DNA of 38,557 nucleotides, taken from NCBI GenBank assembly GCA_017889635.1, contig JAGGAC010000020.1:1-38557 (forward strand). Reading direction: 5' to 3'. Numbering within the stretch: position 1 is the stretch's first letter; each line of letters starts with the position of its first letter. The notes beneath the pieces are model-generated. The model saw only the letters and a program-made list of their open reading frames with translations, had not been told where the DNA came from and did no database searches. The DNA comes from Bacillota bacterium. Its GTDB lineage: Bacteria > Bacillota > Negativicutes > Sporomusales > CTSoil-080. Made by a program: the position numbers and the translations under genes. Of this stretch, positions 3,858 through 23,687 are shown piece after piece.

Positions 3858-4997
3858 ATGGGTGCTTATTTTGAAAATACAACTAAAAGAACATCAGCTC
3901 CTTTCCGGTATGACATTGTTGGAAGCTTTCTGCGTCCTCAAGCAATTAAAGAGGCAAGAGAAACGTTTGCGACCGGGAAAATAACCCAGACTGAGCTTAC
4001 TTGTGTTGAAGATGATGAAATTATGAAACTTATTGACAAACAGAAGAAGATTGGACTGAAGGCTGTCACAGACGGAGAATTCCGTCGCAGTTATTGGCAT
4101 CTGGATTTCTTTTGGGGCTTTGAAGGTGTGGAGCATGTGATAATGGATCACGGCTATTTTTTTCATGGAGAGGAAACCAGGGCAGATTCTGCACGGCTTT
4201 CTGGTAAAATCCGCTTTTCAGGTCACCCGTTTTTGGCGCACTATCGTTTTTTAAAGCAAATGGCTGGCGATGATGTGATTGCCAGACAGACTATTCCTGC
4301 TCCAGCTCAATTTTTTGCGGAAATAGTTCGGGACGTGAATAAAGATGAAATTGTAAAATACTATTCTGACGGTGAAGAACTTTACAGCGATATTTCTGAC
4401 GCTTATCGTAAGGCGATTCTCGCGTTTTATAAATTGGGATGCCGGAATATTCAATTGGATGATTGCACCTGGGGCATGATTTGTGATAAAAACTTCTGGT
4501 CGACAATGGCTGGCGAAGGATATGATATTCAAGAGCTTCAGAACATCTATCTTCGCCTAAACAACGATGCAATAAAAGGTCTTCCGGACGACATGATGGT
4601 AACTACCCATATTTGTCGCGGCAATTATCACTCTACTTGGGCGACATCCGGTGGTTATGATCCAGTTGCTAAAACTCTTTTTGGAAATGAAAATGTATCT
4701 GCCTATTATCTGGAATATGACACTGAGCGCGCAGGTGATTTTTCTCCATTAAAAGAAGTGTCTGGCGATAAGCTGGTGGTTCTTGGCCTGGTGTCTTCTA
4801 AAACGGGAGATCTTGAGAATAAGGAGAAAATCATCGCTCGTATTCACGAGGCCGCGCAGTATGTTCCGGCGGATCGTTTGTGCTTAAGCCCCCAATGCGG
4901 TTTTGCTTCTACCGAAGAGGGGAATATTTTGACAGAAGAACAGCAATGGAGGAAGCTTGCCTTTATTAAAGAAATTGCAGAGGAAGTATGGAGATAA
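3858..4997 (+). CDS. MetE C-terminal-domain methyltransferase (YxjG/YxjH-like)
   Basis: A 379-residue protein covering only the catalytic barrel of cobalamin-independent methionine synthase, with no N-terminal half. The zinc-site pattern is intact: H251-x-C253 (THICRG), E286 and C347 (SPQCGFAS), plus the early DIVGSFLRP and VTDGEFRRSYW segments. Members of this family move a methyl group to homocysteine from short folates or other donors; the donor cannot be read from sequence. A full-length MetE is also present at 9011-11254, so this protein is not the only B12-independent route to methionine. No riboswitch is seen upstream. AAGGAG precedes the ATG. Confidence 0.85.
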   Translation: MGAYFENTTKRTSAPFRYDIVGSFLRPQAIKEARETFATGKITQTELTCVEDDEIMKLIDKQKKIGLKAVTDGEFRRSYWHLDFFWGFEGVEHVIMDHGYFFHGEETRADSARLSGKIRFSGHPFLAHYRFLKQMAGDDVIARQTIPAPAQFFAEIVRDVNKDEIVKYYSDGEELYSDISDAYRKAILAFYKLGCRNIQLDDCTWGMICDKNFWSTMAGEGYDIQELQNIYLRLNNDAIKGLPDDMMVTTHICRGNYHSTWATSGGYDPVAKTLFGNENVSAYYLEYDTERAGDFSPLKEVSGDKLVVLGLVSSKTGDLENKEKIIARIHEAAQYVPADRLCLSPQCGFASTEEGNILTEEQQWRKLAFIKEIAEEVWR

Positions 4998-5097
4998 GGT
5001 GGGGGGAATAATGCAAATTCAGTGATTTCTTTTGGTGGGTGAGTTAGCCGGTTGAATTTATTTTTAAGAACCTGAGTTGCTGTTTCTTAGGGAAATA

Positions 5098-5127
5098 TTG
5101 ACAAAGTAGACGTGATAATGGTAAATT
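5098..5127 (+). promoter_or_regulatory. Candidate promoter for the riboswitch leader
   Basis: A perfect TTGACA (5098-5103) is followed after 18 bases by TAAATT (5122-5127), about 25 bases before the first cobalamin aptamer. The -35 is strong and the -10 is four of six. Confidence 0.45.
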
Positions 5128-5152
5128 TAAAAAGATTAGAAAAATAAAATAC

Positions 5153-5356
5153 AGATGGAGCAGGTGCCCCTACGGGCTTAATAGGGAAGTCCGGTGAAAT
5201 ACCGGCGCGGTCCCGCCACTGTAATGAGGAGCGAACCCAAGATATGCCACTGGAACGAAAGTTTTGGGAAGGTTTGGGCAAGCTATGATTCAGAGCCAGG
5301 AGAACTGCCTGTTTAGCAATCACCGTTAAAGTACCCACGAGTGATGGGGAGGAGAT
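5153..5356 (+). promoter_or_regulatory. Cobalamin riboswitch, first of the tandem set
   Basis: The conserved class-I cobalamin aptamer blocks occur in order: GGTGCC entry near 5163, GGGAAGTCCGGTGAAAT, CGGTCCCGCCACTGTAATGA, and the B12 box GAGCCAGGAGAACTGCC at 5293-5309. A 3' segment CAATCACC...CCCACGAGTGATGGGGAGG follows; the same segment recurs after the other two class-I copies in this window. Downstream are a perfect 20-base palindrome and a strong terminator rather than a gene, so this switch acts by early termination before a second riboswitch. Confidence 0.95.
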
Positions 5357-5386
5357 TTTCGTATAATGGTTGTACGATATTTCTTT

Positions 5387-5406
5387 CCCGGCAAAATTTT
5401 GCCGGG
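5387..5406. repeat. Perfect 20-base palindrome in the riboswitch expression platform
   Basis: CCCGGCAAAA (5387-5396) is followed directly by its complement TTTTGCCGGG (5397-5406). It lies between the first aptamer and its terminator. No T run follows, so it is more likely a competing hairpin or a structural element than a terminator on its own. Confidence 0.6.
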
Positions 5407-5441
5407 ATGTGTATTGTTGCGGCTTTATACTTATATCTATA

Positions 5442-5468
5442 CCTCCTGCTTGTGGCAGGAGGTTTTTT
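5442..5468 (+). terminator. Intrinsic terminator after the first cobalamin riboswitch
   Basis: CCTCCTGC (5442-5449) pairs with GCAGGAGG (5455-5462) and is followed by six Ts. It lies between two riboswitches with no gene in between, so it must act as the output of the first one. Confidence 0.85.
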
Positions 5469-5496
5469 AGTTTGTTCACTTTTGACAAGTAAATAG

Positions 5497-5703
5497 TAAT
5501 GAGGTAGGTGCCCCAAAGGGCTTAATAGGGAAGTCCGGTGAAAGGCCGGTGCGGTCCCGCCACTGTAATGAGGAGTAAACCCAAGGAGATGCCACTGGGA
5601 CGAATTTGTCCTGGGAAGGTTTGGGTGAGCTATGATTCAGAGCCAGGAGAACTGCCTATCTAACAATCACCATTAATTACCCACGAGCGATGGGGAGGGG
5701 ATT
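5497..5703 (+). promoter_or_regulatory. Cobalamin riboswitch, second of the tandem set
   Basis: A second full class-I aptamer, closely matching the first: GTAGGTGCC, GGGAAGTCCGGTGAAAGG, GCGGTCCCGCCACTGTAATG, and the B12 box AGCCAGGAGAACTGCC at 5641-5656, then CAATCACC...CCCACGAGCGATGGGGAGG. It begins about 30 bases after the first terminator. A TTGACA at 5482-5487 has no -10 at a usable distance, so transcription probably reads through from the first unit. Confidence 0.95.
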
Positions 5704-5721
5704 AGCCGTTTAGGGCGTTTT

Positions 5722-5805
5722 GCTCGGTTATTATAATAGCCGAGCCTATTTTGCAACGCACTTTTTTGGGTAACGAAATCTCCTATCGCTAGGAGATTTT
5801 TCTTT
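5722..5805 (+). terminator. Expression platform and terminator of the second riboswitch
   Basis: A hairpin GCTCGGTTAT/ATAGCCGAGC (5722-5745) is followed by a terminator, AAATCTCCTA (5776-5785) pairing with TAGGAGATTT (5790-5799) and a T-rich tail. The two-hairpin layout repeats that after the first aptamer. Confidence 0.8.
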
Positions 5806-5829
5806 TGCTCAAAATTAGGCTGGCATGAA

Positions 5830-6031
5830 TTATAAATAGTTCAATCAGGAGAGGGGGTGAGGCTGCACATTTATGGTGTATTAATTAGAAAGCAATTACC
5901 ATTGATGAGGAAGTCCGAGTAAATCGGACACAGACTTGTTATGTGAGAAAAGGGTTAAGTAGCAAGTCTGAAGTCCAAATATATATGATAATTACCTGCT
6001 TTTTGTCTGTCACAAAGGGGGAGGTAATAAA
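5830..6031 (+). promoter_or_regulatory. Unassigned structured mRNA leader before the CoA-transferase
   Basis: About 200 bases between the second terminator and the GTG start fold readily: ATGGT (5873-5877) with ACCAT (5898-5902), GTCCGA (5913-5918) with TCGGAC (5924-5929), AGACTTG (5932-5938) with CAAGTCT (5963-5969). ATTACCT (5991-5997) can pair with AGGTAAT (6022-6028), which contains the Shine-Dalgarno sequence, four bases before the GTG. The GGAAGTCCGAGTAAATCGGAC part resembles the GGGAAGTCCGGTGAAA block of the neighbouring aptamers, but the CCGCCACTGTAA core is missing. It may be a decayed or derived cobalamin aptamer working on translation, or an unrelated element. Confidence 0.45.
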
Positions 6032-7591
6032 GTGTCAAAAATAGTCGATGCTTATTTTGAAGGATTTCAGGAAAATACCATTGATATTTATAGCCGCGTG
6101 TACAATGAATTTCTTCGCAAAAAAATTGTTAGTGCTAAAGAGGCCGCGACAGCTATTCAGCCAGGAATGATTATCGCAACAAGTGGTTTTACGCCAGCCG
6201 GTTACCCTAAAAGTGTTCCGTTAGCGTTAGTCGATAGGATAAAAAAGGAGGGCTTTAAAGTAAACTTGTGGACAGGTGCTTCGGTGGGAGATGAACTGGA
6301 TGGTGCTTTAGCTAGAGCAGGCGGTCTTGCCAAGTATTTGCCATATCAGACAAATGATGATGTACGGAAGTTGATCAATGAAGGTGAAATTGAGTATTTA
6401 GATCTTCATTTAAGCCATGTAGGGCAAATGGCTCGTTCGGGATTTTTGGGCGGCAAAGTGGATGTAGCTATTATAGAAGCCAGTGCTATAACGGAGGACG
6501 GCTATATTATTCCGACCACCTCATTGGGGAATACAGCATCTTATGTACAAAGTGCCGATAGGATCATTGTTGAAATAAATGTTACTCAACCAGAAAATTT
6601 AGCTGGTATTCATGATGTATATATACCGAATGATCCTCCGAAGCGATCGCCAATTATGATTGGCAAGGTAAACGATCGAATTGGAGTTCCTTATATAGCG
6701 AGTGATATCAATAAAATTCAATATATCGTGCCTTGTGACAAACCTGATGGAGTCCGTGATTTTGCAAAGAAGGATGCGATTTCCGAAGCAATAGCCGGAC
6801 AGCTTATTGAGTTTTTCCATGATGAGATAAGGGAAGGCCGTCTTCCTTGCAATTTGCTGCCGCTACAATCAGGGGTGGGATCAGTAGCGAATGCGGTTGT
6901 GAGTGGTTTGGTTGACTCTGATTTTACAGATTTGACTGTATATACAGAGGTCATTCAAGATGGTTTATTAGATCTTATTGATGCAGAAAAACTGGTCTTT
7001 GCTTCGGGAACGGCGTTGACACTGTCGCCGTATGGGCTAAAGAGGTTTTATGACGAGATAGAAAGATACCGAAAAAGAATCGTATTAAGACCGCAAGAAA
7101 TATCAAATTCTCCCGAGGTAATTCGACGTTTAGGTGTTATAGCTATGAATACGGCCTTAGAGTTTGATATTTATGGTAATGTAAATTCTACGCATGTTAT
7201 GGGGACAAAAATGATGAATGGAATCGGTGGATCGGGGGATTTTGCAAGAAATGCGTATTTGACCATATTTTTTAGCAGTTCGTTGGCCAAAAACGGCCTA
7301 ATTTCTTCTATAGTACCTATGTGTTCACATGTTGATCATACGGAGCATGATACGGATATTTTTGTTACCGAGCGGGGAATTGCCGATGTCAGAGGACTAA
7401 GTCCCAAACAACGGGCCAGGCGGATAATTGATCGTTGTGTTCACCCCAAATATCAGCCCTTACTATTAGATTATCTTGTTAGAGCGGAGCGTGAAACTCA
7501 TAATACTCATACGCCACATCAGTTAAATGAAGCATTAAGCTGGCATGAGCGATATTTAAAAACGGGATCAATGGCGGTAAAAAATGCATAA
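6032..7591 (+). CDS. Acetyl-CoA hydrolase/CoA-transferase (succinate/propionyl-CoA:acetate type)
   Basis: A 519-residue protein of the acetyl-CoA hydrolase/transferase family, normal full length. Visible motifs are SGFTPAGYPKSVP (51-63), the CoA-loop-like QSGVGSVANAV (279-289), YTEVIQDG with Glu306 as the likely catalytic glutamate, and a Gly-rich GIGGSGDFARNAY segment. These cytoplasmic enzymes swap CoA between succinate, acetate and propionate. In propionate-forming Negativicutes one such enzyme closes the methylmalonyl-CoA route, which needs adenosylcobalamin; that would explain control by B12 leaders (inference). The start is GTG, placed by GGGGGAGG seven bases upstream. A broken second copy of its 3' end lies at 8222-8309. 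Confidence 0.9.
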   Translation: MSKIVDAYFEGFQENTIDIYSRVYNEFLRKKIVSAKEAATAIQPGMIIATSGFTPAGYPKSVPLALVDRIKKEGFKVNLWTGASVGDELDGALARAGGLAKYLPYQTNDDVRKLINEGEIEYLDLHLSHVGQMARSGFLGGKVDVAIIEASAITEDGYIIPTTSLGNTASYVQSADRIIVEINVTQPENLAGIHDVYIPNDPPKRSPIMIGKVNDRIGVPYIASDINKIQYIVPCDKPDGVRDFAKKDAISEAIAGQLIEFFHDEIREGRLPCNLLPLQSGVGSVANAVVSGLVDSDFTDLTVYTEVIQDGLLDLIDAEKLVFASGTALTLSPYGLKRFYDEIERYRKRIVLRPQEISNSPEVIRRLGVIAMNTALEFDIYGNVNSTHVMGTKMMNGIGGSGDFARNAYLTIFFSSSLAKNGLISSIVPMCSHVDHTEHDTDIFVTERGIADVRGLSPKQRARRIIDRCVHPKYQPLLLDYLVRAERETHNTHTPHQLNEALSWHERYLKTGSMAVKNA

Positions 7592-7614
7592 TGAGAGGGG
7601 AGACAAGGTTACTC

Positions 7615-8052
7615 ATGTACTATCTACTGGCTTTTTTAGTAGGTTTGGGAATGGCTGTTCAGACTGCAGTAAATACGCAGTTAAAAGAACTGATCGGAGG
7701 ACCTTTGCAAGCATCTCTTATTAATGTAATTATTGCTGCTCTAGCATTGACACTATTATTGACGCTGACCGGGAACATAAATCATTGGGAAGGAATAGGT
7801 GATGGCGGTTTAAACTGGTGGAAACTGACTGGTGGAATTATCGGGGCGTTGTATCTTGTAGGGATGATTGTCTCAGCACCGCAAATTGGCCCGGCTAACA
7901 TGTTTAGTTTAATTGTTGGCGGGCAAATCGTAACCGCTATTGTGCTTGATCATTTTGGCCTTTTGGGATTCGCTGTTCATACTGTCACTCCATTGAGAGC
8001 AATGGGGGTTGGTATGTTGGTTATTAGTGTATATATAATTCAAAGCAATTAA
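7615..8052 (+). CDS. DMT-family membrane protein (YdcZ/DUF606 type)
   Basis: A 145-residue, very hydrophobic protein with four to five helices, starting YYLLAFLVGLGMAVQTAVNTQLKELIGG, the usual N-terminus of the half-size DUF606 transporters. An in-frame ATG at 7591 overlaps the CoA-transferase stop (TAATG) and would add eight polar residues, but it has no Shine-Dalgarno; 7615 gives the normal family length. It appears to be translated from the CoA-transferase mRNA. Substrate unknown; such proteins often work as pairs of halves, and no partner is seen here. Confidence 0.75.
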   Translation: MYYLLAFLVGLGMAVQTAVNTQLKELIGGPLQASLINVIIAALALTLLLTLTGNINHWEGIGDGGLNWWKLTGGIIGALYLVGMIVSAPQIGPANMFSLIVGGQIVTAIVLDHFGLLGFAVHTVTPLRAMGVGMLVISVYIIQSN

Positions 8053-8056
8053 TAGA

Positions 8057-8099
8057 ATATCAATCACCGTTTTATTCATGAGCGATGAGGAGGGGATTT
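8057..8099 (+). promoter_or_regulatory. Remnant of the 3' part of a cobalamin riboswitch
   Basis: The sequence ATCAATCACCGTTTTATTCA followed by TGAGCGATGAGGAGGGGATT matches almost base for base the segment that follows the B12 box in the three full riboswitches (for example at 16346-16382). The aptamer itself is absent, so ligand sensing should be lost. It follows the DMT gene directly. Confidence 0.7.
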
Positions 8100-8100
8100 A

Positions 8101-8180
8101 AAGGGCTATATCAGCGGCATGAGTTTGTCATGCTCTGCTATAGGCGATTTAAGCCCTTCTTTAGAAAGGAGGGCTTTTTA
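8101..8180 (+). terminator. Terminator with a competing upstream arm
   Basis: AAGCCCTTCTTT (8151-8162) pairs with AAAGGAGGGCTT (8165-8176) and ends in Ts. AAGGGCT at 8101-8107 could pair with the same AGCCCTT arm, and GCATGA/TCATGC makes a hairpin between. This looks like the expression platform left behind by the lost riboswitch; it still ends the CoA-transferase/DMT transcript. Confidence 0.7.
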
Positions 8181-8221
8181 TTACCGATAAGCACAATATT
8201 ATTTTCATTACGCTGCTGGTT

Positions 8222-8309
8222 GCTACTCATACGCCTCAGCGGTTAAGTGAGGCATTAAGTTGGCATGAGCGGTATTTAAAAAACGGGAGCGATGGCGGTT
8301 AAAGGGTAA
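8222..8309 (+). pseudogene. Fragment of a second CoA-transferase gene (3' end)
   Basis: Bases 8222 onward encode ATHTPQRLSEALSWHERYLK, nearly the same as THTPHQLNEALSWHERYLK at the C-terminus of the CoA-transferase gene. One extra A in the run at 8278-8283 shifts the frame; without it the reading continues TGAMAVKG and stops at 8307-8309, again like the intact copy (TGSMAVKNA). Nothing upstream resembles the rest of the gene. This is the tail of a duplicated, deleted copy. Confidence 0.85.
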
Positions 8310-8340
8310 ATTTTGCAAGTAAAGAGGAAGGGGTTGCATA

Positions 8341-8871
8341 ATGGAAACACGGAAAGGATTAATCATTGTAAATACCGGTGACGGTAAAGGAAAAACTACT
8401 GCAGCTTTTGGATTAGGGCTAAGGGCGTGGGGACATGGACTTAATGTAGTGGTGATACAGTTTATAAAGGGGAATGGCCAATCCGGCGAATTGCTGGGGG
8501 CTGATAAAATGGATGAAAACTTTGTCGTGCTTCAAATGGGGAAAGGTTTTGTGGTTGACGGGGATACAAATCGAATAAGCCATCGGCAGGCTGCGGAAGA
8601 AGCGTTGCGCTTAGCAAAAGAAGAAAGTATCAAGGATAACTGGGATGTAATGATTCTTGATGAAATAAACTGCGCCATAGAGTTAGGTTTGCTGAGGCTA
8701 GAGGAAGTTTTCGACTTATTGGCAAAAAAAAGGCCTTTGCTGCACATTGTGCTAACAGGCCGAAATGCAATGCCAGCCTTAATTGATAGAGCTGACATGG
8801 TTACAGAGATGAAAGAAATAAAACATCCGTACAAAACAGGTGTATCAGCGCAATTGGGGATTGAGTTTTAA
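8341..8871 (+). CDS. cobO: Cob(I)yrinic acid a,c-diamide adenosyltransferase (CobO/BtuR/CobA family)
   Basis: A 176-residue cytoplasmic enzyme that moves the adenosyl group of ATP to Co(I) corrinoid, giving adenosylcobalamin or its precursors. The P-loop GDGKGKTT is at residues 13-20, followed by AAFGLGLRAWGHG, VVVIQFIKG and VMILDEINCAIELGLL, all usual for the family, and the length is normal. AGAGGAAGGGG precedes the ATG. It lies between the CoA-transferase debris and metE. It supplies the coenzyme form that methylmalonyl-CoA mutase would need and that class-I riboswitches usually sense (family knowledge). Confidence 0.93.
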   Translation: METRKGLIIVNTGDGKGKTTAAFGLGLRAWGHGLNVVVIQFIKGNGQSGELLGADKMDENFVVLQMGKGFVVDGDTNRISHRQAAEEALRLAKEESIKDNWDVMILDEINCAIELGLLRLEEVFDLLAKKRPLLHIVLTGRNAMPALIDRADMVTEMKEIKHPYKTGVSAQLGIEF

Positions 8872-8876
8872 TTATA

Positions 8877-8975
8877 TCCACCGGACGGGGGAACTCGTGA
8901 AAACCGTACACACTCGCACTACGGTAATAGAGGCCAAAGGGACATCAAGAGTCCGCTTGCCATCGATAATTCTAA
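8877..8975 (+). promoter_or_regulatory. Class-II (compact) cobalamin riboswitch of metE
   Basis: Five bases after the cobO stop come CGGGGGAACTCGTGAAAACC, then CACTACGGTAATAGAGG, then GTCCGCTTGCCATC near 8951. These match the order of conserved blocks in short class-II cobalamin aptamers (GGGAA..GUGAAA, UACGGUUAU, UCCGAAUGCCA in the known env8 RNA), which lack the peripheral arms and B12 box of the class-I copies nearby. metE encodes the B12-independent methionine synthase, a classic target for repression by B12. No clear terminator lies before the metE Shine-Dalgarno at about 8997-9002, so control is probably on translation (inference). Confidence 0.75.
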
Positions 8976-9010
8976 GTTTTTGTCGCGTAAACAAAAAGGG
9001 GGATGAATTT

Positions 9011-11254
9011 ATGTCAAATAGGGTAGAAACTTATGTTGTAGGTTATCCAAGGATTGGCGAAGGCCGGGAATTAAAAAAAGTGTTGGAGCGTTTCTGGAAT
9101 CAAGAAGCTTCATATGATGAGGTTGAAAATACAGCAAGGGATTTACGCCATAGACATTGGATAGATCAAAAAGACGCTGGCATAACTTTTATTAGTAGTA
9201 ATGATTTTAGCTTGTATGACAATATGCTGGATATGGCTCTGATGCTTAATGCGATTCCTGAAAGATTTCGGAACATTCAAGATGAGCACGATCGTTATTT
9301 TGCAATGGCTCGTGGAACTGATAACGCTGTGGCGATGGAAATGACTAAGTGGTTTAATACAAATTATCACTATATTGTTCCAGAATTATCGGCGGACATG
9401 CCCTTTTCTTTAAATGCAGAAAAAATACTTGGTGAGTACCGAGACGCAAAAAAGTATGGAATTCGGACGAAAATCAATATTGTGGGACCGATAACATTTT
9501 TAGTTCTTTCTAAGCGTATTGATTACACATACGACACGTTAGAATTGTTACCGACGATTTTGGCACAGTTTGTTTTGTTATTAGAAAAAATAGCCGAACT
9601 TGATGATGAGATTTATGTGCAGTTTGATGAGCCAGCAGTTGTAAAAGATATTAGCTTTGAAGTGCTTAAACAATTGGCGTCATCATACGGCATTTTAGCA
9701 GATGTAAGCGCTAAAATAAAGATTATTGTAATGACTTATTTTAATCACGCCACAGAAGCGGTTAAAGCTTTGAAAAATGTACCGGTATACGGAATTGGCC
9801 TTGATTTTATTTATGGTAAAGAAAATATTAAGGCCCTAGAGTATCTCAATGGGAAAAAATTGATCGCCGGTATTATTGACGGCCGAAACGTCTGGAAAAA
9901 TGATTATAAAGGGTCGTTGGAGTTGCTTAATAGTATTGCGGGAAAATTTAATAAGGACGATATAATTCTTTCTACAAGTTGTTCGCTTCTCCATGTACCT
10001 TATTCTTTGGAACATGAGGAACTAATTGGTGAAGATATAAAAAAAAGGATGAGTTTTGCTAAGGAAAAACTGAGCGAACTTGCGGATTTGGCTAAGTTAG
10101 TATCGAGCAATAAAAATGAGGTATTGGAATCATCCAGATTTAAATCGGTTAACCCAAATGTTCGCGAACGAATAAGCCAGATAAAAAGAAATGAGCGCGA
10201 AGGAACCTTTGCTGAACGTATCGCTGTTCAAAAAAAAGCTTTGGGTTTACCGCTACTGCCAACAACAACTATAGGCAGTTTTCCGCAAACAGAAGAGATT
10301 AGGAAATTAAGACGAGATTTTAAGCATAAAGTCATTTCTCAAGTAGAATATGAATGTGGAATTAAAAACTATATTAATGCATGCATTGAATTTCAGGAGG
10401 ATATTGGTCTCGATGTTTTGGTGCATGGCGAGCCAGAACGAAATGATATGGTGGAGTACTTCGGAGAACAACTTGATGGTTTTGTGTTTACAAAAAACGG
10501 ATGGGTGCAAAGTTATGGCAGTCGATGCGTAAAGCCACCGGTTATATATGGCGATGTCAGCAGGGCTAAACCAATGACAGTGGATACTATTTTGTATGCT
10601 CAAAGTAAAACAAAGAAAATTGTGAAAGGAATGTTAACCGGACCGGTTACTATTATTAACTGGTCGTTTGTTCGAGATGATATTGAACGTTCAGCTGTTT
10701 GTGAGCAGATTTCAATGGCTATTATGGATGAAATAAGTGATCTTCAAAATGCGGGGATCAAGATTATTCAGGTTGACGAAGCTGCTTTTAAGGAAGGGTA
10801 TCCTCTCCGAAATGCGGAAGTAGCCGATTATGAAGAATGGGCAATTAAAGCTTTTAAATTAGCTGTTAGTTCTGCTTGGCGTCAAACGCAAATTCATACC
10901 CATATGTGTTATAGTGATTTTACTGACATAATTCATACCATTGAAAAAATGGATGCTGATGTCATTACTATTGAAACTTCCCGGAGCGGCAATAAAATGT
11001 TGAAGGTTTTTTCTGATCATAGTTATAAAAATCAAATTGGACCAGGAGTATATGATATTCATTCACCAAGAGTTCCTTCAATGGAGGAACTCTTGGAAAA
11101 AATCGAACAGTTAATGCGAGTTTTACCAGCGAAAAAAGTATGGATTAATCCTGATTGCGGCCTTAAAACTAGAAAGTGGGATGAGGTACGATTAAGCTTG
11201 GTAAATATGGTAAGAGCAACACATAATATTAGATGTGGACTAGAAAAAGGGTGA
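9011..11254 (+). CDS. metE: 5-methyltetrahydropteroyltriglutamate-homocysteine methyltransferase (MetE)
   Basis: A 747-residue, two-domain cobalamin-independent methionine synthase. The zinc ligands are H631, C633 (HTHMCYSDF), E655 and C716 (NPDCGLKTR), exactly ten less than H641, C643, E665 and C726 of the E. coli enzyme. TTTIGSFPQT opens the C-terminal catalytic domain. The frame is open back to 8840, but that extension is the riboswitch read as protein; ATG 9011, nine bases after a GGGGG run, is the start. The cell also makes or imports B12 (cobO, btu operon), so repression of this gene by cobalamin makes sense. A strong hairpin terminator follows. Confidence 0.95.
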   Translation: MSNRVETYVVGYPRIGEGRELKKVLERFWNQEASYDEVENTARDLRHRHWIDQKDAGITFISSNDFSLYDNMLDMALMLNAIPERFRNIQDEHDRYFAMARGTDNAVAMEMTKWFNTNYHYIVPELSADMPFSLNAEKILGEYRDAKKYGIRTKINIVGPITFLVLSKRIDYTYDTLELLPTILAQFVLLLEKIAELDDEIYVQFDEPAVVKDISFEVLKQLASSYGILADVSAKIKIIVMTYFNHATEAVKALKNVPVYGIGLDFIYGKENIKALEYLNGKKLIAGIIDGRNVWKNDYKGSLELLNSIAGKFNKDDIILSTSCSLLHVPYSLEHEELIGEDIKKRMSFAKEKLSELADLAKLVSSNKNEVLESSRFKSVNPNVRERISQIKRNEREGTFAERIAVQKKALGLPLLPTTTIGSFPQTEEIRKLRRDFKHKVISQVEYECGIKNYINACIEFQEDIGLDVLVHGEPERNDMVEYFGEQLDGFVFTKNGWVQSYGSRCVKPPVIYGDVSRAKPMTVDTILYAQSKTKKIVKGMLTGPVTIINWSFVRDDIERSAVCEQISMAIMDEISDLQNAGIKIIQVDEAAFKEGYPLRNAEVADYEEWAIKAFKLAVSSAWRQTQIHTHMCYSDFTDIIHTIEKMDADVITIETSRSGNKMLKVFSDHSYKNQIGPGVYDIHSPRVPSMEELLEKIEQLMRVLPAKKVWINPDCGLKTRKWDEVRLSLVNMVRATHNIRCGLEKG

Positions 11255-16162: not shown

Positions 16163-16183
16163 TTAAATAATTAAATACTTTTG

Positions 16184-16384
16184 AGATAGGTGCCCTGAGG
16201 GGCTTAATAGGGAAGTCCGGTGAAACACCGGCGCGGTCCCGCCACTGTAATAGGGAGCAACCCCAAGTAATACCACTGGGACGAAAGTCTTGGGAAGGTT
16301 TGGGCGAGCGATGATCTAGAGCCAGGAGAACTGCCTATCTATCAGTCACCGTTTTTTACCCACGAGCGATGGGGAGGGGATTAT
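16184..16384 (+). promoter_or_regulatory. Cobalamin riboswitch of the corrinoid-uptake operon
   Basis: A third full class-I aptamer: GATAGGTGCC, GGGAAGTCCGGTGAAACACC, GCGGTCCCGCCACTGTAATA and the B12 box GCCAGGAGAACTGCC at 16321-16335, then TCACCG...CCCACGAGCGATGGGGAGGGG. It resembles the two copies at 5.1-5.7 kb throughout. When cobalamin is bound the downstream terminator should form and shut off the uptake genes. Confidence 0.95.
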
Positions 16385-16459: not shown

Positions 16460-16490
16460 AACCTCTCGTTTTCGAGAGGTTTTTCTTTTT
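16460..16490 (+). terminator. Riboswitch terminator before btuF
   Basis: AACCTCTCG and CGAGAGGTT form a tight stem with a TTTT loop, followed by a T-rich tail to 16490. It lies between the aptamer and the first gene of the operon, 47 bases before the btuF start. Confidence 0.85.
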
Positions 16491-16536
16491 GCGCGGTTCA
16501 TCCATTTTACTGGCTAACATTGTTGAGGTGTCAGTT

Positions 16537-17448
16537 ATGAAAAAAATGAAAGTACTTTACCTGCTGTTAGGCGTTATCTTGTTTATACTGTTGTTTGGGG
16601 CAACAATGTTGCAACAGAATTCCAGAAGCCACTTGAATAATGATATAAATCAAGATTCTAAAAAAAATAAGCCACAGCGCATTGTATCCATGTCGCCTGG
16701 CAACACTGAAATTTTATTTGCCCTTGGTGCAGGAGCACGGGTAGTCGGCGTTAGCAGTTACTCTGATTATCCTGACGAAGCAAAAAATAAACCTATTATC
16801 GGTTCATATAATTCTCCTGACGTAGAAAAGATTGTGGCATTGGCTCCGGACATTGTATTTGCCATGGGTCAAACCCAGGCTAGCTACATTCACGTATTGG
16901 AGCAAGCGGGCATTCATGTGGTGGCGACAGAACCCCAAAATCTTTCGGAGATACTAACGTCCATCGATATTATTAGTGCAGCTATCGGGGAAGAGGAGCA
17001 CGGTGCGGCTCTCAACGCCGAGTTGACCGGTAAAATTGATGCTGTGCGGCAGCTGACAGCTAATTCTCAGCCCAAACGAGTATTTATGGAAATATGGGAT
17101 GCACCGCTTTTAACTGTAGGCAGTCGATCTTTTATTAACGATATTATAAATCAGGCCGGAGGAATCAATGTAGCGGGAAATAAAAACGTGTACTATACGC
17201 CCTGCGATGTTGAGATGCTATATGCCTATAATCCAGAGATTTATATCGTTGTCAGCCATAGCCGAAAAGATATTCGTTCTTATGTTACGCAAGCGGAACT
17301 TCGCGACATTACTGCGGTAAAAAACGAACAGGTTTTTCCTATCTTGGATGACTTACTAACCCGGCCGGGACCGCGCAGTTTTGATGGCTTGATCGAATTA
17401 GCTAAAATTCTTCATCCTGAGGAGATGAAATCTTGGGAGGCAAAATGA
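16537..17448 (+). CDS. btuF: Corrinoid-binding periplasmic protein (BtuF)
   Basis: A 303-residue substrate-binding protein with QRIVSMSPGNTEILFALGAGARVVGVSSYSDYP, the usual start of the BtuF domain. The ATG follows GAGGTG by six bases; a longer in-frame reading from 16489 would begin inside the terminator. A hydrophobic segment (residues 6-24) has no cysteine, so the protein is either secreted to the periplasm or anchored by that helix, unlike the lipoprotein at 208-1188. Its TGA overlaps the btuC start (ATGA). It hands corrinoid to BtuCD. Confidence 0.9.
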   Translation: MKKMKVLYLLLGVILFILLFGATMLQQNSRSHLNNDINQDSKKNKPQRIVSMSPGNTEILFALGAGARVVGVSSYSDYPDEAKNKPIIGSYNSPDVEKIVALAPDIVFAMGQTQASYIHVLEQAGIHVVATEPQNLSEILTSIDIISAAIGEEEHGAALNAELTGKIDAVRQLTANSQPKRVFMEIWDAPLLTVGSRSFINDIINQAGGINVAGNKNVYYTPCDVEMLYAYNPEIYIVVSHSRKDIRSYVTQAELRDITAVKNEQVFPILDDLLTRPGPRSFDGLIELAKILHPEEMKSWEAK

Positions 17449-18461
17449 GTCAGGTAGCAAAAAAGCCGATTTTGCTTATCAGTGCTTGCGCGTTGCTGTT
17501 GGTAATAATCGCTGTGGTTATGCTTGTGTTTGGCACTGTCTATGTGCCGTTTGAAGCAGTTGTTTCTGTCCTTTTGGAAAAGTTATTTGGAATTGAAATC
17601 CTTGACACTACACTTGCCCAGCAAATTATTGTGTGGAATGTACGTTGGCAAAGGATTGCCTTGGCGATGATTGTTGGAAGCGGTTTGTCGGTAGCTGGAG
17701 CCTGTTTCCAGACAATATTTAAGAATCCGCTGGCCGACCCCTTTGTTCTGGGAGTTTCGTCAGGAGCGGCGTTAGGGGCGGCGGTATCAATAATTACTCG
17801 CCACACGGAACTGATGATTGTATTTGCCTTTGCCGGAGCAATGCTCAGTTTGGTGTTAGTTTATCTTATGGGACAACAAAGCCTAGAACTTCGTTCGGAC
17901 CAGCAAGTGATATTGGCGGGTATTGCTATCGGTGCGCTGCTTAATGCTCTCTTGAGCGCATCGATGGCGCTAAACTCTGAGCAAATGCAAATGATTGTAT
18001 TTTGGTTAATGGGTAGCCTGACTAATTATGTGGGCAGTCTTAAACCAGTTATCGCTGTTGTTATATTTGGTTTTGTTATTGCGATTGTTTATGCTCGCGA
18101 TTTAGATGTCATGGTTCTTGGGGATGAAGATGCTCAATTTTTAGGGGTCGATGTTGCTAAAGTAAAGCTGATTTTGCTTGTGGCAACTACTCTGGTGACT
18201 GGTGTGTGTGTATCAGTAAGCGGAATAATCGGTTTTATCGGTCTGATTGTACCACATATTGTTCGTAAGCTGGCAGGGCCAACGCATCTTGTCTTGTTGC
18301 CGCTTAGTGCGATTTTAGGCGCGGTATTTCTCATGTTGGCCGATGGCTTGACCCGTAGTCATCCATTATTGTCAGGTATACCGGTTGGCGTGGTCACCGC
18401 CTTGGTAGGCAGTCCGTTTTTTTTGTACGTATTATATACTGCTGGCAGGAGGATGCCGTAA
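17445..18461 (+). CDS. btuC: Corrinoid ABC transporter permease (BtuC/FecCD family)
   Basis: A 338-residue membrane protein of the FecCD family, with around ten hydrophobic helices, the NPLADPFVLGVSSGAALGA motif near residue 95 and the GFIGLIVPHIVRKLAG segment that contacts the ATPase. The start is ATG 17445 after GGAGG, overlapping the btuF stop; the in-frame upstream codons lie over the Shine-Dalgarno. The end overlaps the next gene (TAATG). Two copies would form the inner-membrane channel with BtuD. Confidence 0.92.
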   Translation: MSQVAKKPILLISACALLLVIIAVVMLVFGTVYVPFEAVVSVLLEKLFGIEILDTTLAQQIIVWNVRWQRIALAMIVGSGLSVAGACFQTIFKNPLADPFVLGVSSGAALGAAVSIITRHTELMIVFAFAGAMLSLVLVYLMGQQSLELRSDQQVILAGIAIGALLNALLSASMALNSEQMQMIVFWLMGSLTNYVGSLKPVIAVVIFGFVIAIVYARDLDVMVLGDEDAQFLGVDVAKVKLILLVATTLVTGVCVSVSGIIGFIGLIVPHIVRKLAGPTHLVLLPLSAILGAVFLMLADGLTRSHPLLSGIPVGVVTALVGSPFFLYVLYTAGRRMP

Positions 18462-19231
18462 TGGAAATTTTAGAGCTTCGAGCGCTGGATGCGGGTTATA
18501 GCTCTAAGCTAGTGTTGCAAGATGTACATCTCATGATAAATGCTGGACAATTTGTCAGTATCGTCGCTCCAAACGGCGCTGGTAAATCAACGCTTCTGAA
18601 AACAGTTTCCGGAGTGCTGCCTCCGTTGAACGGTGCTATTTTCTTGAAGGGAAAACCTTTGAACGGTTTTAGCCGGCGGGAGACAGCGAGAGAGATTGCT
18701 GTTGTTGGTTCTGAACTGCCGGTTTTAGATTATACAACATTACAAATGGTAACAATGGGGCGGTTTCCTCATATTTGCCGACTGGCTGGATTGAAGACGG
18801 AAGATCATTCCGTCGTTCAGGCGATTATGGAAAATGTGGGGATTTGGGAAAAACGGTTATGCCAATGCCGTGAATTAAGCCAAGGCGAACGGCAAAAGGT
18901 TATCATCGCCCGGGCTTTAGCGCAGAAGCCAAAGCTATTACTTTTGGATGAGCCAACGGCTCACTTAGATATCTGTAATCAGTTTGCTATTTTACAGCTT
19001 ATAAAAAATTTAGCCTTATATCAAGATATGGCAGTTATTGCGGTTATTCATGATATTAATTTGGCGCTTCAGTTTAGTACACAACTTATGTTCTTGAAGA
19101 ATGGCCGAATACTGGCTTACGGTAAACCGCAAGACGTGGCAACAACGGAAGTCTTAAAGAGCCTTTACGGAATGAATTTTAATATATACTCTGATGCTGC
19201 AGCCACGTATGTACGACCAAATTTAGCTTAA
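18461..19231 (+). CDS. btuD: Corrinoid ABC transporter ATPase (BtuD)
   Basis: A 256-residue ABC ATPase. Walker A is APNGAGKST (residues 36-44; the first Gly is replaced by Ala, which is tolerated), the signature is LSQGERQKV, Walker B is LLLLDEPTAHLD and the switch His is in AVIHDINLAL. Its ATG shares one base with the btuC stop. It drives import from the periplasm together with BtuC and BtuF. Confidence 0.93.
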   Translation: MEILELRALDAGYSSKLVLQDVHLMINAGQFVSIVAPNGAGKSTLLKTVSGVLPPLNGAIFLKGKPLNGFSRRETAREIAVVGSELPVLDYTTLQMVTMGRFPHICRLAGLKTEDHSVVQAIMENVGIWEKRLCQCRELSQGERQKVIIARALAQKPKLLLLDEPTAHLDICNQFAILQLIKNLALYQDMAVIAVIHDINLALQFSTQLMFLKNGRILAYGKPQDVATTEVLKSLYGMNFNIYSDAAATYVRPNLA

Positions 19232-19282
19232 TGGCCAGGACAAGTTTAAATTTATAAAATCAAACTAATGGAGGAATGCGCG

Positions 19283-21124
19283 ATGAAAAACAGGTTACTA
19301 AGGAAACGAATTATGGTAGCGTTAGTTGCTGGGACATTTTTATGGGGCAGCCAAGCTTTGGCCGCTGAGGACGCGACCCAAGATACAACGTTTCAGCTTG
19401 ACCAGGTAACGATAACCGCTGACCGGATTACTCAGACCGTTGGTGAAACTCCGGCTAATGTAACAGTGATCACTGAGGTTGAACTGAAAAACAAAGGCGC
19501 GCGGACGCTGGCAGACGCCCTGACCGGAGTAAGCGGCATTGTGCTGAAAACCTATGGCGGCACCGGGCAAAACGCTTATCCTTATATATTCGGTACCGAG
19601 CGGGTTGTTGTACTGATGGACGGCAAACGAATGAATTTGCCGCAAGGCGTTTCCTCAGGTGCCGGCGGTATTGATGTTAACACCATTTTGCTTGGGGACA
19701 ACGTTGACCATATTGAGGTTGTGCGCGGCGGCGCATCAACGCTGTATGGCGCAGATGCTGTCGGCGGCGTCATTAATATTATTACTAAAAAAGGTTCTAG
19801 CGCCGAAAAGACAACTGCGACAGTGGCTAGCGGCAACTATGGTGCTAGGTATTATGAACTGAGCACCGGTGGGCAGGAGAAAAATACCCATTGGCAATTG
19901 TCGGGAGTAAAGAATTCTGGTGATGGGCAGCGCCAAAATAGTGCCTATGAGGGGAAAAATCTTTCGCTTCGTCTGGATCAGGATTTGTCGGCAAGTGAAA
20001 GCCTGAACTTTACTTATGACTATTATGATAATCACGCTGGAATGCCTGGTAGCTTGACTTATCCTTCAACAACTGATTTTTCCGACATTTTGCGCCGAAA
20101 CTGGAGCATCGGCTACACAAAACAGCATACTGACGGCAATCGTACATTCCGGTATTACGACAACGACCAGGTATACTCCGGCGATAACTCTGGCGTTTTC
20201 TGGCACCATAATACTGTGAGGGCGTTTGAGTATCAGGATAGTGCAAGGGTTAACGACGCCAATCTCTTGACCTGGGGGACCGAGTGGCGGCAAGACGAAG
20301 TGGAAAGCACCAGCGAAAGCAGCACACTGCGTGACCGCATTACCAGAGCAGCTTATCTAGAAAACCAGTATAGTTTTAACAAAGCTGCGAAAATGACGGT
20401 GGGCTTAAGGCGTGATGATAACAGCGTATACGGTACACACTGGCTGCCGCAAGCTGGCTATTTGTATCAAATTAATGCTAAGACCAGCTATTTTGCTAAT
20501 TGGGCCAAAGTATTCAAAGCACCAACTTTCGATGATTTATATTATTATGATGGTTATGGGTATATGGTGGGTAATCCTGATTTAAAGCCTGAATCAGGCT
20601 GGACGGCGGAAACCGGTATAAAAACACGGCTTAGTAAAATAAGTGAGCTAACAGTCTCAGTGTTTAAACGGGACATTAGCGATGCAATTGACTGGGTTAA
20701 TACTTCCGGCAGTATTTGGCAACCAATAAATATTAACCATTATAAAGCGACCGGTCTAAATGCGAATATTATCAGCAAGGTATCGCCAAATCTAACCACT
20801 GATTGCGGCTATACCTATCTTGACAGCTGCGATCAGGACGGCGCTGATGTCGGTGACCCAAGGCACAGCATTCATATTGGCGTCAATCTTCAGGCCGGTA
20901 AATTGAATCAAGCAGTGTACGGTCTTTATCAAGATAAAACTGGGTTGACTACTAGTCGGGTAAGCAGTCACTTTTTGATAAACTTTAGTACCAAATATAC
21001 TTTAAATAGTGCTACTTCATTATTTTTAACGGTTAATAACCTTTTAGACAAAGAGTATCAAGGGGTATATAACTATCCAGCCAGCCGGCGGACAGTCTTA
21101 TTTGGGGTAAAGCAAACTCTGTAA
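19283..21124 (+). CDS. btuB: TonB-dependent outer-membrane corrinoid receptor (BtuB-like)
   Basis: A 613-residue outer-membrane receptor. A signal peptide (RIMVALVAGTFLWGSQALA) is followed by a TonB-box-like DQVTITA, a plug domain (PANVTVITEVELKNKGARTLADAL, then VVVLMDGKRMN, IEVVRGGASTLYGADAVGGVINIITKK split across its strands) and a beta-barrel ending in a C-terminal aromatic-poor strand RRTVLFGVKQTL. The ATG 15 bases into the longer frame is used because GGAGG lies between the two ATGs. Its place in a cobalamin-riboswitch operon with btuFCD and cbiZ makes corrinoids the likely substrate. Confidence 0.9.
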   Translation: MKNRLLRKRIMVALVAGTFLWGSQALAAEDATQDTTFQLDQVTITADRITQTVGETPANVTVITEVELKNKGARTLADALTGVSGIVLKTYGGTGQNAYPYIFGTERVVVLMDGKRMNLPQGVSSGAGGIDVNTILLGDNVDHIEVVRGGASTLYGADAVGGVINIITKKGSSAEKTTATVASGNYGARYYELSTGGQEKNTHWQLSGVKNSGDGQRQNSAYEGKNLSLRLDQDLSASESLNFTYDYYDNHAGMPGSLTYPSTTDFSDILRRNWSIGYTKQHTDGNRTFRYYDNDQVYSGDNSGVFWHHNTVRAFEYQDSARVNDANLLTWGTEWRQDEVESTSESSTLRDRITRAAYLENQYSFNKAAKMTVGLRRDDNSVYGTHWLPQAGYLYQINAKTSYFANWAKVFKAPTFDDLYYYDGYGYMVGNPDLKPESGWTAETGIKTRLSKISELTVSVFKRDISDAIDWVNTSGSIWQPININHYKATGLNANIISKVSPNLTTDCGYTYLDSCDQDGADVGDPRHSIHIGVNLQAGKLNQAVYGLYQDKTGLTTSRVSSHFLINFSTKYTLNSATSLFLTVNNLLDKEYQGVYNYPASRRTVLFGVKQTL

Positions 21125-21180
21125 TCTTTTGCAGTAAACATAAAGTAAACTGATTATTTTAATAAAGAGAGCGGAGAATT

Positions 21181-21906
21181 ATGGACAAACAGCTTCTTAT
21201 AACCGGCGGCGAATTAACTACGGACAGTCAATTTATTATCTGCCGTTTTTCCTCCCCGAGACTTGTTCTAAGTACTTCCCTGTTTAATGGCGGATATGTA
21301 ATAGCTGATAGCGTATTCAACCACCGGTTATGTTTTTTTGTCAGCAGTGAAGGTGATTTGCCTGGCGGCTGTATGGAAAAATATTTGGCAATTATGGCTG
21401 GTAAGCGCGGCTTAAGCATGAAACGTTCTACAGGGTTATTGACAAGCGCGCATATGAACTGCCGAGGCTACAGCGTTGTAACATATGAAAACCTGACGGT
21501 AGAAGTTGTGGCAACTGCAGGAGTTAGGGAAAATGCTACTCGCGCTGGTGAACCAGCTTGCTATTTTGAAGATGACGGCCAATACAGACAGTTAGGCGGT
21601 ACCATCAATATTTTGGCTTTTACTAATGTTAGACTACCCTACGGCACGATGGCCAAAGCTCTTATCAGTATTACTGAGGCGAAAACAGTTGCGCTGGAAG
21701 AATTAGGGGTGGTAAGCCCATTGACACTGAAGGCTGCTACCGGCACAGGTACAGACGGCATTATTTTAGTGGGCAACCAGGATGCGGCAATTTGTTGTTC
21801 TGATGTGGGAACTCAATCCAAGCTGGGCGAACTTTTTTGCGTGGCTGTCAAAACGGCAGTAAAGCAGGCGCTATTTCTGGAATGCGATATAAAGCCTTTG
21901 GAATAG
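21181..21906 (+). CDS. cbiZ: Adenosylcobinamide amidohydrolase (CbiZ)
   Basis: A 241-residue protein with the CbiZ hallmark VVATAGVRENATRAGEPA near residues 109-126, plus SAHMNCRGYSVVTYE and ATGTGTDGIILV. CbiZ cuts adenosylcobinamide (and in some organisms pseudocobalamin) to adenosylcobyric acid, so that the cell can rebuild its own preferred B12. Here it sits between the outer-membrane receptor and the exb genes, showing that the operon imports and remodels corrinoids of other makers. GCGGAG precedes the ATG. Confidence 0.88.
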   Translation: MDKQLLITGGELTTDSQFIICRFSSPRLVLSTSLFNGGYVIADSVFNHRLCFFVSSEGDLPGGCMEKYLAIMAGKRGLSMKRSTGLLTSAHMNCRGYSVVTYENLTVEVVATAGVRENATRAGEPACYFEDDGQYRQLGGTINILAFTNVRLPYGTMAKALISITEAKTVALEELGVVSPLTLKAATGTGTDGIILVGNQDAAICCSDVGTQSKLGELFCVAVKTAVKQALFLECDIKPLE

Positions 21907-21952
21907 ATAACGGATTAAACGGGAAAGTCTTTGCGGTCGGAGGTGTATTATT

Positions 21953-22588
21953 ATGGAATTTATTATGCAGGGTGTGGAGCTTTTTTCCAAAGGCGGTCTG
22001 GTTATGTATCCACTTGTCGTCTGTTCAGTGGTGGTATTAGCAATTATAATTGAGCGTTGTATGTATTTGCGTACGGCTGATATTTCTAGTGCGGCGCTCT
22101 TAGAAGATACTGTCCAGAAATTAAGGGCCGGTGACTGGGACGAAGCTGCCGAATTGTGCACAAAGGCAAAGGGCGTTATTGCTGAGATGTTGGCGCGGGG
22201 CTTAGCTGAGCGAGTTGATGATCGACAACAACTGGAACAAATACTGGAAGGCGCTGCAGCCCGGATGGTCACTAAACTGCGCTATCGGCTTGATTATTTG
22301 GATACCATCGTGACCTTGGCGCCTTTATTGGGGCTGCTGGGAACAGTAACAGGTATGATAGCGTCATTCAGTGTGCTTAATATTAAGAGTGGTCAGCCGC
22401 TGGCGATAACGGGCGGCGTAGGGGAAGCGTTGATCGCTACTGCTACAGGGCTGTGCGTAGCTATTATTGCGTTAGTGACGCATAGTTATTTGAATCATCG
22501 GATCGATGTTATTATTAGTACGATGGAGGAAGCGGCTAATTCCATAGTGGTGGCCGCTATAAAAGGGACACGCCATGAAGCTGGATAA
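21953..22588 (+). CDS. exbB: ExbB/TolQ-family proton channel subunit
   Basis: A 211-residue membrane protein with an N-terminal helix (GGLVMYPLVVCSVVVLAIIIERCMYL), a cytoplasmic loop, then two helices containing LDTIVTLAPLLGLLGTVTGMIASF and GEALIATATGLCVAIIALV, the conserved MotA/TolQ/ExbB core. GGAGGTG lies seven bases before the ATG. Its end overlaps exbD by 14 bases. It powers the BtuB-like receptor with exbD and tonB. Confidence 0.92.
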   Translation: MEFIMQGVELFSKGGLVMYPLVVCSVVVLAIIIERCMYLRTADISSAALLEDTVQKLRAGDWDEAAELCTKAKGVIAEMLARGLAERVDDRQQLEQILEGAAARMVTKLRYRLDYLDTIVTLAPLLGLLGTVTGMIASFSVLNIKSGQPLAITGGVGEALIATATGLCVAIIALVTHSYLNHRIDVIISTMEEAANSIVVAAIKGTRHEAG

Positions 22589-22982
22589 ACTCAGGATAAA
22601 AAAAACGCCGCGTCTGATGATTATTCCTATGATTGATATCATTTTTTTTCTATTGGTCTTTTTTATGATGAGTACATTATATATGGTTGACCAGAGAGTT
22701 ATTCCGGTTATACTGCCGAGTGCGGCTGCAGCGCAAGCTGACAGATCCACGATGGTGCCGATAACGGTTACTGCGCAGGGGAAAATTCTGATTGATCAAA
22801 CTGAATTTCCTGATGAACTTGTAACTAGCCGCATAAAAGCTGAAGTATCTAAAAATCCGGATACAGCCTTTATATTGAGAGCTGACAAAAAGGTTGAATA
22901 CGGCAGGGTCATTTGGCTGTTGGATGAATTAAAAAAGTGTGGCGTGCGACGAGTGGCGGCCGCGACTGAGGTAATTCCATGA
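22575..22982 (+). CDS. exbD: ExbD/TolR-family subunit
   Basis: A 135-residue protein with a short cytoplasmic start, one helix beginning PMIDIIFFLLVFFMMSTLYM (the Asp in the helix is the conserved proton-carrying residue) and a periplasmic domain. The reading frame begins inside the exbB 3' end, so translation is probably coupled. Confidence 0.92.
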   Translation: MKLDKLRIKKTPRLMIIPMIDIIFFLLVFFMMSTLYMVDQRVIPVILPSAAAAQADRSTMVPITVTAQGKILIDQTEFPDELVTSRIKAEVSKNPDTAFILRADKKVEYGRVIWLLDELKKCGVRRVAAATEVIP

Positions 22983-22997
22983 ACCGGGAGGTACGGT

Positions 22998-23687
22998 ATG
23001 GGGCGTGGTAAGTATTGGCGTTCTGCCATAGCGTTGTCGGTGTTAATTCATTTGATGATATTAGCAGTGAGTGTTGGGATAGCTAAATTTACGGTGGTAA
23101 GGCAACCGACGGAGGAATATCTTGAACTGGAACTGGTTAATGTCAGTTTAGCTACAAATGATAATACTTTGTCAGGTGTGACACATGAGATATCAGCAAA
23201 AGTTCAAGGTGTAATCGCAGATACAGTTGTTGCCGCTCGGGAAAGAGTAGATAGCTCCAGTAGTAGTCCGGATACTCCTGAAGATGGAATCCCACCTTTA
23301 AGTGCTAAGATATCTGTTGGCAATACCGGTGCTCCAACAGAGGGCAAGTCGGCTATCCAACAACAGGGCGAAAATGACGCACGGCAAAATGTCAGTACTA
23401 CGAAGTCAACAATTCGGTCTCCACAAATATTGGAGAAAATCGATCCGAATTATCCAGACCAAGCCCGGCGGCAGGGATGTGAAGGAACAACGATTGTCAA
23501 GTTGGAAGTGCTGGCTACGGGGCATGTCGGGGCGGTCAAGGTTGAACATTCATCAGGATATCCGATACTTGATGATGCTGCCGTTAAAGCAGTTAGAAAG
23601 TGGCGATTTATTCCGGCAAGCGACAATGCAAGTGGTATACCGGTTGGTTGTGTGACAACTATTCCGCTAGTGTTCCGTCTTAATTAA
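22998..23687 (+). CDS. tonB: Energy transducer TonB
   Basis: A 229-residue protein with an N-terminal helix (AIALSVLIHLMILAVSVGIAKF), a long Ser/Thr/Gln-rich linker that is poor in the usual Pro repeats, and a C-terminal TonB domain (KIDPNYPDQARRQGCEGTT, VKVEHSSGYPILDDAAVKAV, RKWRFIPA). GGGAGG precedes the ATG by eight bases. It is the last gene of the corrinoid operon. No clear terminator follows for over 500 bases. Confidence 0.92.
   Translation: MGRGKYWRSAIALSVLIHLMILAVSVGIAKFTVVRQPTEEYLELELVNVSLATNDNTLSGVTHEISAKVQGVIADTVVAARERVDSSSSSPDTPEDGIPPLSAKISVGNTGAPTEGKSAIQQQGENDARQNVSTTKSTIRSPQILEKIDPNYPDQARRQGCEGTTIVKLEVLATGHVGAVKVEHSSGYPILDDAAVKAVRKWRFIPASDNASGIPVGCVTTIPLVFRLN

Follow-up and report, generated by a model that had tools for sequence, protein, structure and literature searches.

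The scpC-like gene for a succinate / succinyl-CoA:acetate CoA-transferase in a Negativicutes genome of the order Sporomusales is, judging from modelled RNA folds, very likely preceded by two B12-controlled transcription gates. The gene lies within the window, by which we mean the whole stretch of 38,557 nucleotides analysed here (contig JAGGAC010000020.1). We consider it probable that its leader consists of serial OFF switches for the same corrinoid ligand, transcribed from one upstream promoter and followed by a third stretch that covers most of the Shine-Dalgarno sequence. Computed along the leader are two aptamers, competing helices, two terminators, a hairpin at the Shine-Dalgarno sequence and an intact gene.

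A covariance search with the Rfam cobalamin model RF00174 recovered two full-length matches on the forward strand, aptamer 1 at 5145-5326 (114.0 bits) and aptamer 2 at 5489-5673 (109.4 bits), both above the gathering score of 31.5 and both covering model positions 1-189 of 189. The initial annotation, made from the letters alone, had described two complete cobalamin riboswitches here with terminators ending near 5468 and 5805, and its coordinates and stop positions are upheld. The aptamers are alike, as it also said, but at 87% identity over 199 nt its wording "near-identical" is slightly strong. No gene of note lies between the two aptamers on their strand according to the open reading frame listing, so that the switches do follow each other without an intervening gene and form a tandem pair, each aptamer with its own platform and the interval between them gene-free. 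Over the whole window, three full-length RF00174 aptamers were found, the third at 16171-16352 (120.9 bits).

Each copy carries its own hairpin and terminator, as first described. Switch 1 continues with a P13-like hairpin (5334-5348; CCCA/UGGG), identical in the other full copies shown, followed by a stable mid-platform hairpin (5386-5407) and an intrinsic terminator with a T-run (5441-5468), the stem of which (5441-5463) has a predicted energy of -16.6 kcal/mol. Folding without the 3' arm of the terminator yields an antiterminator (5347-5447), in which 5347-5356 pairs with 5435-5438 and 5442-5447 and encloses the mid-platform hairpin. The same elements recur in switch 2: a P13-like hairpin assigned by copy comparison (5680-5694), an antiterminator (5696-5784) pairing 5696-5704 with 5778-5784 around a second stable hairpin (5722-5745), and an intrinsic terminator with a T-run (5775-5805; stem 5775-5800, -12.0 kcal/mol). 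A scan of both strands of 4700-6400 gave 9 terminator-like sites compared with 1.8 (sd 1.5) in shuffles. The predicted folds thus contain the P13 and terminator/antiterminator platform expected of RF00174 switches. In the remnant of a further switch at 8058, the P13-like helix CCCA/UGGG has become UUCA/UGAG, one two-sided change that keeps the helix. In switch 1, ViennaRNA favours a hairpin at 5319-5345 over the P13-like hairpin. A helix AUCAC/GUGAU, drawn by ViennaRNA in switch 1, was rejected as P13 because copies with GCGAU would break it. L5 carries UCCCG, the consensus quoted in the available part of PMC10653944, and the loop CGAGYGA lacks CGG; by reading the switch sequences, no clear L5-L13 kissing-loop pairing was identified.

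The direction of control can be predicted from the relation between P13 and the terminator. According to the available sections of PMC10653944, base pairing between the P13 3' side and the 5' terminator arm marks a repressing switch, as was shown by mutation, while in the one known activating corrinoid switch the P13 3' side shares its sequence with that arm; two Sporomusa ovata switches departed in part from this simple model. In the folds of both copies analysed here, the P13 3' side does not repeat the sequence of the 5' terminator arm but is its complement, and repression is thus predicted for both. Since the platforms obey the published repressing rule, B12 most likely closes two serial transcription gates, a proposal of the initial annotation that the aptamer scores and the competing antiterminator and terminator helices support at the level of a model. 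That the switches instead activate scpC when B12 is present would have a precedent in the one activating riboswitch (PMC10653944) and might suit a gene whose product partners with a B12-dependent mutase, but the complementarity in both copies is the opposite of the activating type and the metE and cobO genes downstream fit repression, which makes activation highly improbable.

Serial gating further depends on where transcription starts. The sole consensus promoter reported on the forward strand of 4700-6400 is a promoter-like site at 5098-5127, composed of TTGACA and an extended -10-like TAAATT; counting both strands, this region holds 2 such sites against 3.5 expected, which is not above chance. 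In G001, a genome of a related genus in the family of the window genome, a tandem of B12 switches likewise has the block ATATTGACAAA[AG]TAG ahead of its first copy, and this copy and switch 1, each taken with its platform, are 82% identical over 317 nt. The G001 tandem (L136, G001:C37, 5110-5676) precedes orthologues of the window operon at 16489-23687, which itself has one B12 switch (16171-16352). Directly before aptamer 2 there is an isolated TTGACA (5482-5487, forward strand), read from the sequence and possibly a relic of a duplicated promoter, and it could indicate that switch 2 has a promoter of its own and that the two switches are independent units acting in parallel. This is very unlikely, as the motif has no -10 at a fitting distance and the scan of 4700-6400 reported no consensus promoter between the two switches. 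The promoter-like block common to the relative, together with the lack of a consensus promoter between the copies, argues for the serial arrangement of both gates.

If both aptamers bind a corrinoid, as we infer, the serial OFF switches would work as follows. With the corrinoid absent, the 5' arm of the terminator would be captured by the P13 3' side and the purines that follow it, letting polymerase through; with the corrinoid present, P13 would be held and the terminator would form. Only transcripts passing both gates would reach scpC, and the pair should therefore repress it more tightly and with a steeper response than a single switch would. On a transcript that has passed, the last hairpin of the third stretch would cover most of the scpC Shine-Dalgarno sequence and either lower or gate translation.

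The target gene has an intact frame (6032-7591, forward strand; 519 aa, GTG start) and scores above both cut-offs in the curated families TIGR03458 of NCBIfam (742 bits) and ScpC (725 bits), placing it in the ScpC/AarC family. Solved succinyl-CoA:acetate CoA-transferase structures are among its best matches and the closest named scpC records come from Negativicutes. It is followed on the same strand by a listed open reading frame for a YdcZ-family membrane protein (7591-8052; Pfam PF04657), by the corrinoid adenosyltransferase gene cobO/btuR (8341-8871; NCBIfam and Pfam family searches) and by a listed open reading frame for the B12-independent methionine synthase MetE (8840-11254), which scores 1035 bits in NCBIfam, over the cut-off, with the match starting at residue 63. 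The scpC unit is flanked by two B12-independent methionine-synthase-type genes, at 3858-4997 and 8840-11254. Between ydcZ and cobO, directly before cobO-metE, lie a B12-switch remnant (8058-8182, forward strand) and then an 80 nt fragment left from the 3' end of another scpC copy (8224-8303, forward strand), which aligns to 7504-7582 at 86% identity and with a single indel. The remnant has lost the aptamer body and gave no RF00174 match in the Rfam scan; it retains the aptamer 3' end, the P13-like hairpin and the rival antiterminator and terminator folds, and where it aligns with the other copies (38-46 nt) identity is 80-84%. Together, the remnant platform and the scpC fragment before cobO-metE suggest rearrangement, and they may be what is left of an ancestral switch-scpC-cobO-metE unit after duplication and partial loss.

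Between the second terminator and scpC lies a third folded segment (5806-6031, forward strand), which is single-copy in its own genome and has no convincing relative among the class genomes searched. The initial annotation held that it can hide the Shine-Dalgarno sequence, and the folding analysis agrees. The region 5806-6045 folds better than shuffles (z -3.2; 0 of 200 as low), and a predicted hairpin (5991-6028) pairs most of the Shine-Dalgarno sequence (6017-6024), with pairing probabilities of at least 0.99 for 6023-6026, 0.63-0.91 for 6016-6020, 0.88 for 6022 and only 0.11 for 6021. Apart from base 6021, most of the Shine-Dalgarno sequence was paired in all six sub-windows folded. The segment had also been proposed as a third, translational B12 gate; the hairpin is there in the prediction, but nothing links it to B12 and we see no evidence for a B12-linked third gate. 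Within 5809-6031, no Rfam family and thus no known RNA candidate appeared at an E-value of 10 or less, and the scan of 4700-6400 contained no forward-strand terminator-like site between 5806 and 6031. A putative upstream open reading frame of 21 codons (5857-5922, forward strand), with a GTG start at 5857 and AGGAG ahead of it, can be read from the sequence.

One explanation, to which we give about an even chance, is that the third segment senses nothing and is rearrangement debris, that is, the scar of a former scpC copy joined to unrelated DNA, with the hairpin setting a low translation rate. A DNA search of 380 class genomes returned the window itself and, in the other 379, only six chance-like matches of 24-30 nt; two first-look candidates were scored per genome in this search, so that weak relatives could be missed. 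Near the start of the segment, a 15-nt stretch (5814-5828, forward strand) shares 14 letters with the scpC 3' end, a match reached by 0 of 200 mononucleotide shuffles, and some 2 kb further on there are the second scpC fragment and the truncated B12-switch platform. Against debris stand the better-than-shuffled fold and the very stable hairpin over the Shine-Dalgarno sequence, and the possible scar is short and was noticed first and shuffle-tested afterwards.

A different leader precedes scpC in related genomes. Close scpC genes (E ≤ 1e-150) are present in 20 of the 28 order genomes, the window genome included, and in each of the other 19 one scpC locus shares a conserved RNA leader composed, in order, of helix P1, GGACAG, hairpin P2, CUGAAA, P1', a linker, two stacked helices termed P3 and a terminator. 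These loci (L087-L105, upstream of scpC), further leader loci (L222-L249) and alignments A3 and A5 represent the leader, which was not found in the window. In the 19-sequence alignment (R1), 83.9% of cells pair and 102 are double-change cells, compared with 39 in shuffled and 23-32 in slid alignments; the 41-sequence aptamer-only alignment (R2) has 81.9% pairing and 216 double-change cells against 77 shuffled and 54-89 slid, all of these counts including kinship among the sequences, which shuffling does not remove. R1 omits L106-L113, 8 of the 27 non-window scpC-family loci, because by eye no such leader is present there, and R2 was built after 18 of 59 A4 matches had been dropped as palindromic, truncated or poor or as the window genome's own match. 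Rfam gave no match above cut-off over the conserved leader in 20 loci; 8 loci had 12 matches between them, all falling far short of the cut-off.

At an E-value of 0.01 and with strict filters, the full leader model matched 38 of 380 class genomes. The aptamer-only model missed five weak loci (in G000, G075, G119, G120 and G121), where the full model may have matched no more than a terminator. In the window genome, the weak match (G000:C20, 34 bits) is followed by an mmdA-like gene whose score falls just short of its family cut-off (935 vs 999 bits). Elsewhere, the leader stands before scpC-mutase operons, before the mutase alone in G011-G014 and, in G008, before a carboxyltransferase of the methylmalonyl-CoA decarboxylase type. 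Other targets, some assigned by eye, are Na+ decarboxylase beta subunits, ATP synthase subunit A, a Gpr1/YaaH-family permease and a chemotaxis receptor. The available text of PMC8632094 describes other RNA motifs of the class, and no description of this leader was met in the literature searched. This strongly covarying leader is a good riboswitch candidate absent from Rfam, and the comparison has thereby exposed a testable candidate ahead of genes for ScpC, methylmalonyl-CoA mutase, Na+-pumping decarboxylase and ATP synthase.

The third segment could in principle be a highly diverged form of this leader (R1/R2), its platform changed from termination to hiding of the Shine-Dalgarno sequence. 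It sits directly before scpC, and the best aptamer-only match in 5806-6100 is full length, in the right order and with ACAG...CUGAA (5922-6027; 8.0 bits, E 0.024 for this region alone), with a helix AUUACC/GGUAAU over the Shine-Dalgarno sequence. The full model, applied to the 3.5 kb of 5000-8500, ranked a full-length match at 5922-6057 second of 20 (9.3 bits, E 0.13). This relationship nevertheless appears doubtful. The full model gives a better score (11.9 bits) to an unrelated site within scpC (7212-7273), and the aptamer-only match ranks fourth over the whole window (E 3.1); the position is right but the score is at background. Furthermore, the conserved GGAC would fall inside P1, the UUAYGGUCU of the leader is absent and no terminator platform follows P3 as it does in the conserved leader. 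We regard it as unlikely that two B12 transcription gates are stacked on a different riboswitch of the scpC-leader family with its output moved to the Shine-Dalgarno sequence; if they were, scpC would be expressed only at low B12 combined with a permissive second signal from energy metabolism.

The CoA-transferase gene is an unusual target, as the initial annotation had said: a B12 switch was seen at none of the 29 other scpC loci scanned, comprising 20 of the 27 non-window scpC-family loci of the order and 9 of the 80 other scpC loci listed, the latter from named records. Tandem B12 switches themselves are not rare. Among 302 aptamers over the cut-off in the 28 order genomes, with tandem clusters defined by an author-chosen gap of at most 450 nt and three RF00174 matches below cut-off excluded beforehand, at least 26 clusters were counted in 10 genomes, a lower bound as not every first-look candidate was scored. 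Three of these clusters are triples (G005:C2, G009:C74 and G017:C2; L172, L174 and L190). Apart from the clusters of the window and G001, the first open frames after the other 24 of 26 were judged by eye and none was CoA-transferase-like, with one cluster leading to a mutase-family gene (G003:C268). Among the names of these first frames are what we take to be a TonB-type receptor, an OmpH-like protein and a chelatase. Genes of the methylmalonyl-CoA mutase family have a B12 switch no more than about 0.8 kb upstream at G003:C268:31303-34081, where the switch is tandem, G005:C8:214029-216146 and G026:C10:70788-73261. No B12 riboswitch pair on a CoA-transferase gene was found described in the literature searched; as far as these searches show, the tandem arrangement is known and scpC as a B12-switch target is new.

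The window genome has a B12-dependent methylmalonyl-CoA mutase at a separate locus (G000:C70), which rules out a genome lacking this enzyme. Unlike in most relatives, no scpC gene was seen immediately before the mutase at this locus (G000:C70:17000-26000, L164), and the conserved leader was not matched there. Under the serial OFF switches, low B12 would derepress scpC as the B12-dependent mutase stalls, alongside the B12-independent MetE. The derepressed ScpC could then move CoA off succinyl-CoA, or could supply succinyl-CoA for methionine synthesis beside MetE. Such control would add a succinate CoA-transferase, a fermentation gene, to the genes that B12 riboswitches can govern, and the debris around it, namely a truncated switch, part of a gene and a switch module also present at a transporter operon, perhaps records how the control arose.

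Several known systems resemble parts of this arrangement. In one Sporomusa, cobalamin riboswitches are the most abundant class and sit on B12 genes, according to the part of PMC12456013 available, and the corresponding text of PMC11575231 gives no B12 riboswitch near succinate-pathway genes in Xylanibacter ruminicola. The tested cobalamin riboswitch of Veillonella parvula mutA (PMC9600662, available in part) acts on the same propionate pathway in what is probably the same bacterial class, but there one switch precedes the mutase gene, whereas in the window two precede a CoA-transferase gene. With the repressing RF00174 switch of Priestia megaterium metE, as given in the available sections of PMC10653944, the window shares the full aptamer, the P13/antiterminator/terminator logic and a metE gene nearby downstream; it differs in its two serial copies, in having a CoA-transferase gene first, in the added segment hiding the Shine-Dalgarno sequence and in the lack of a clearly assigned kissing loop. 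The tandem of the G001 transporter operon, whose switch 1 and platform resemble those of the window, differs in its target, as it precedes the orthologues of an operon that has a single switch in the window. Cobalamin is among the characterised contiguous riboswitches in the accessible part of PMC12452182, and 26 AdoCbl riboswitch doublets are reported in that of PMC9481103. Like the window's pair, these doublets consist of two same-class aptamers with a platform each; the window differs in its third folded stretch, in the truncated third platform downstream and probably in its target gene.
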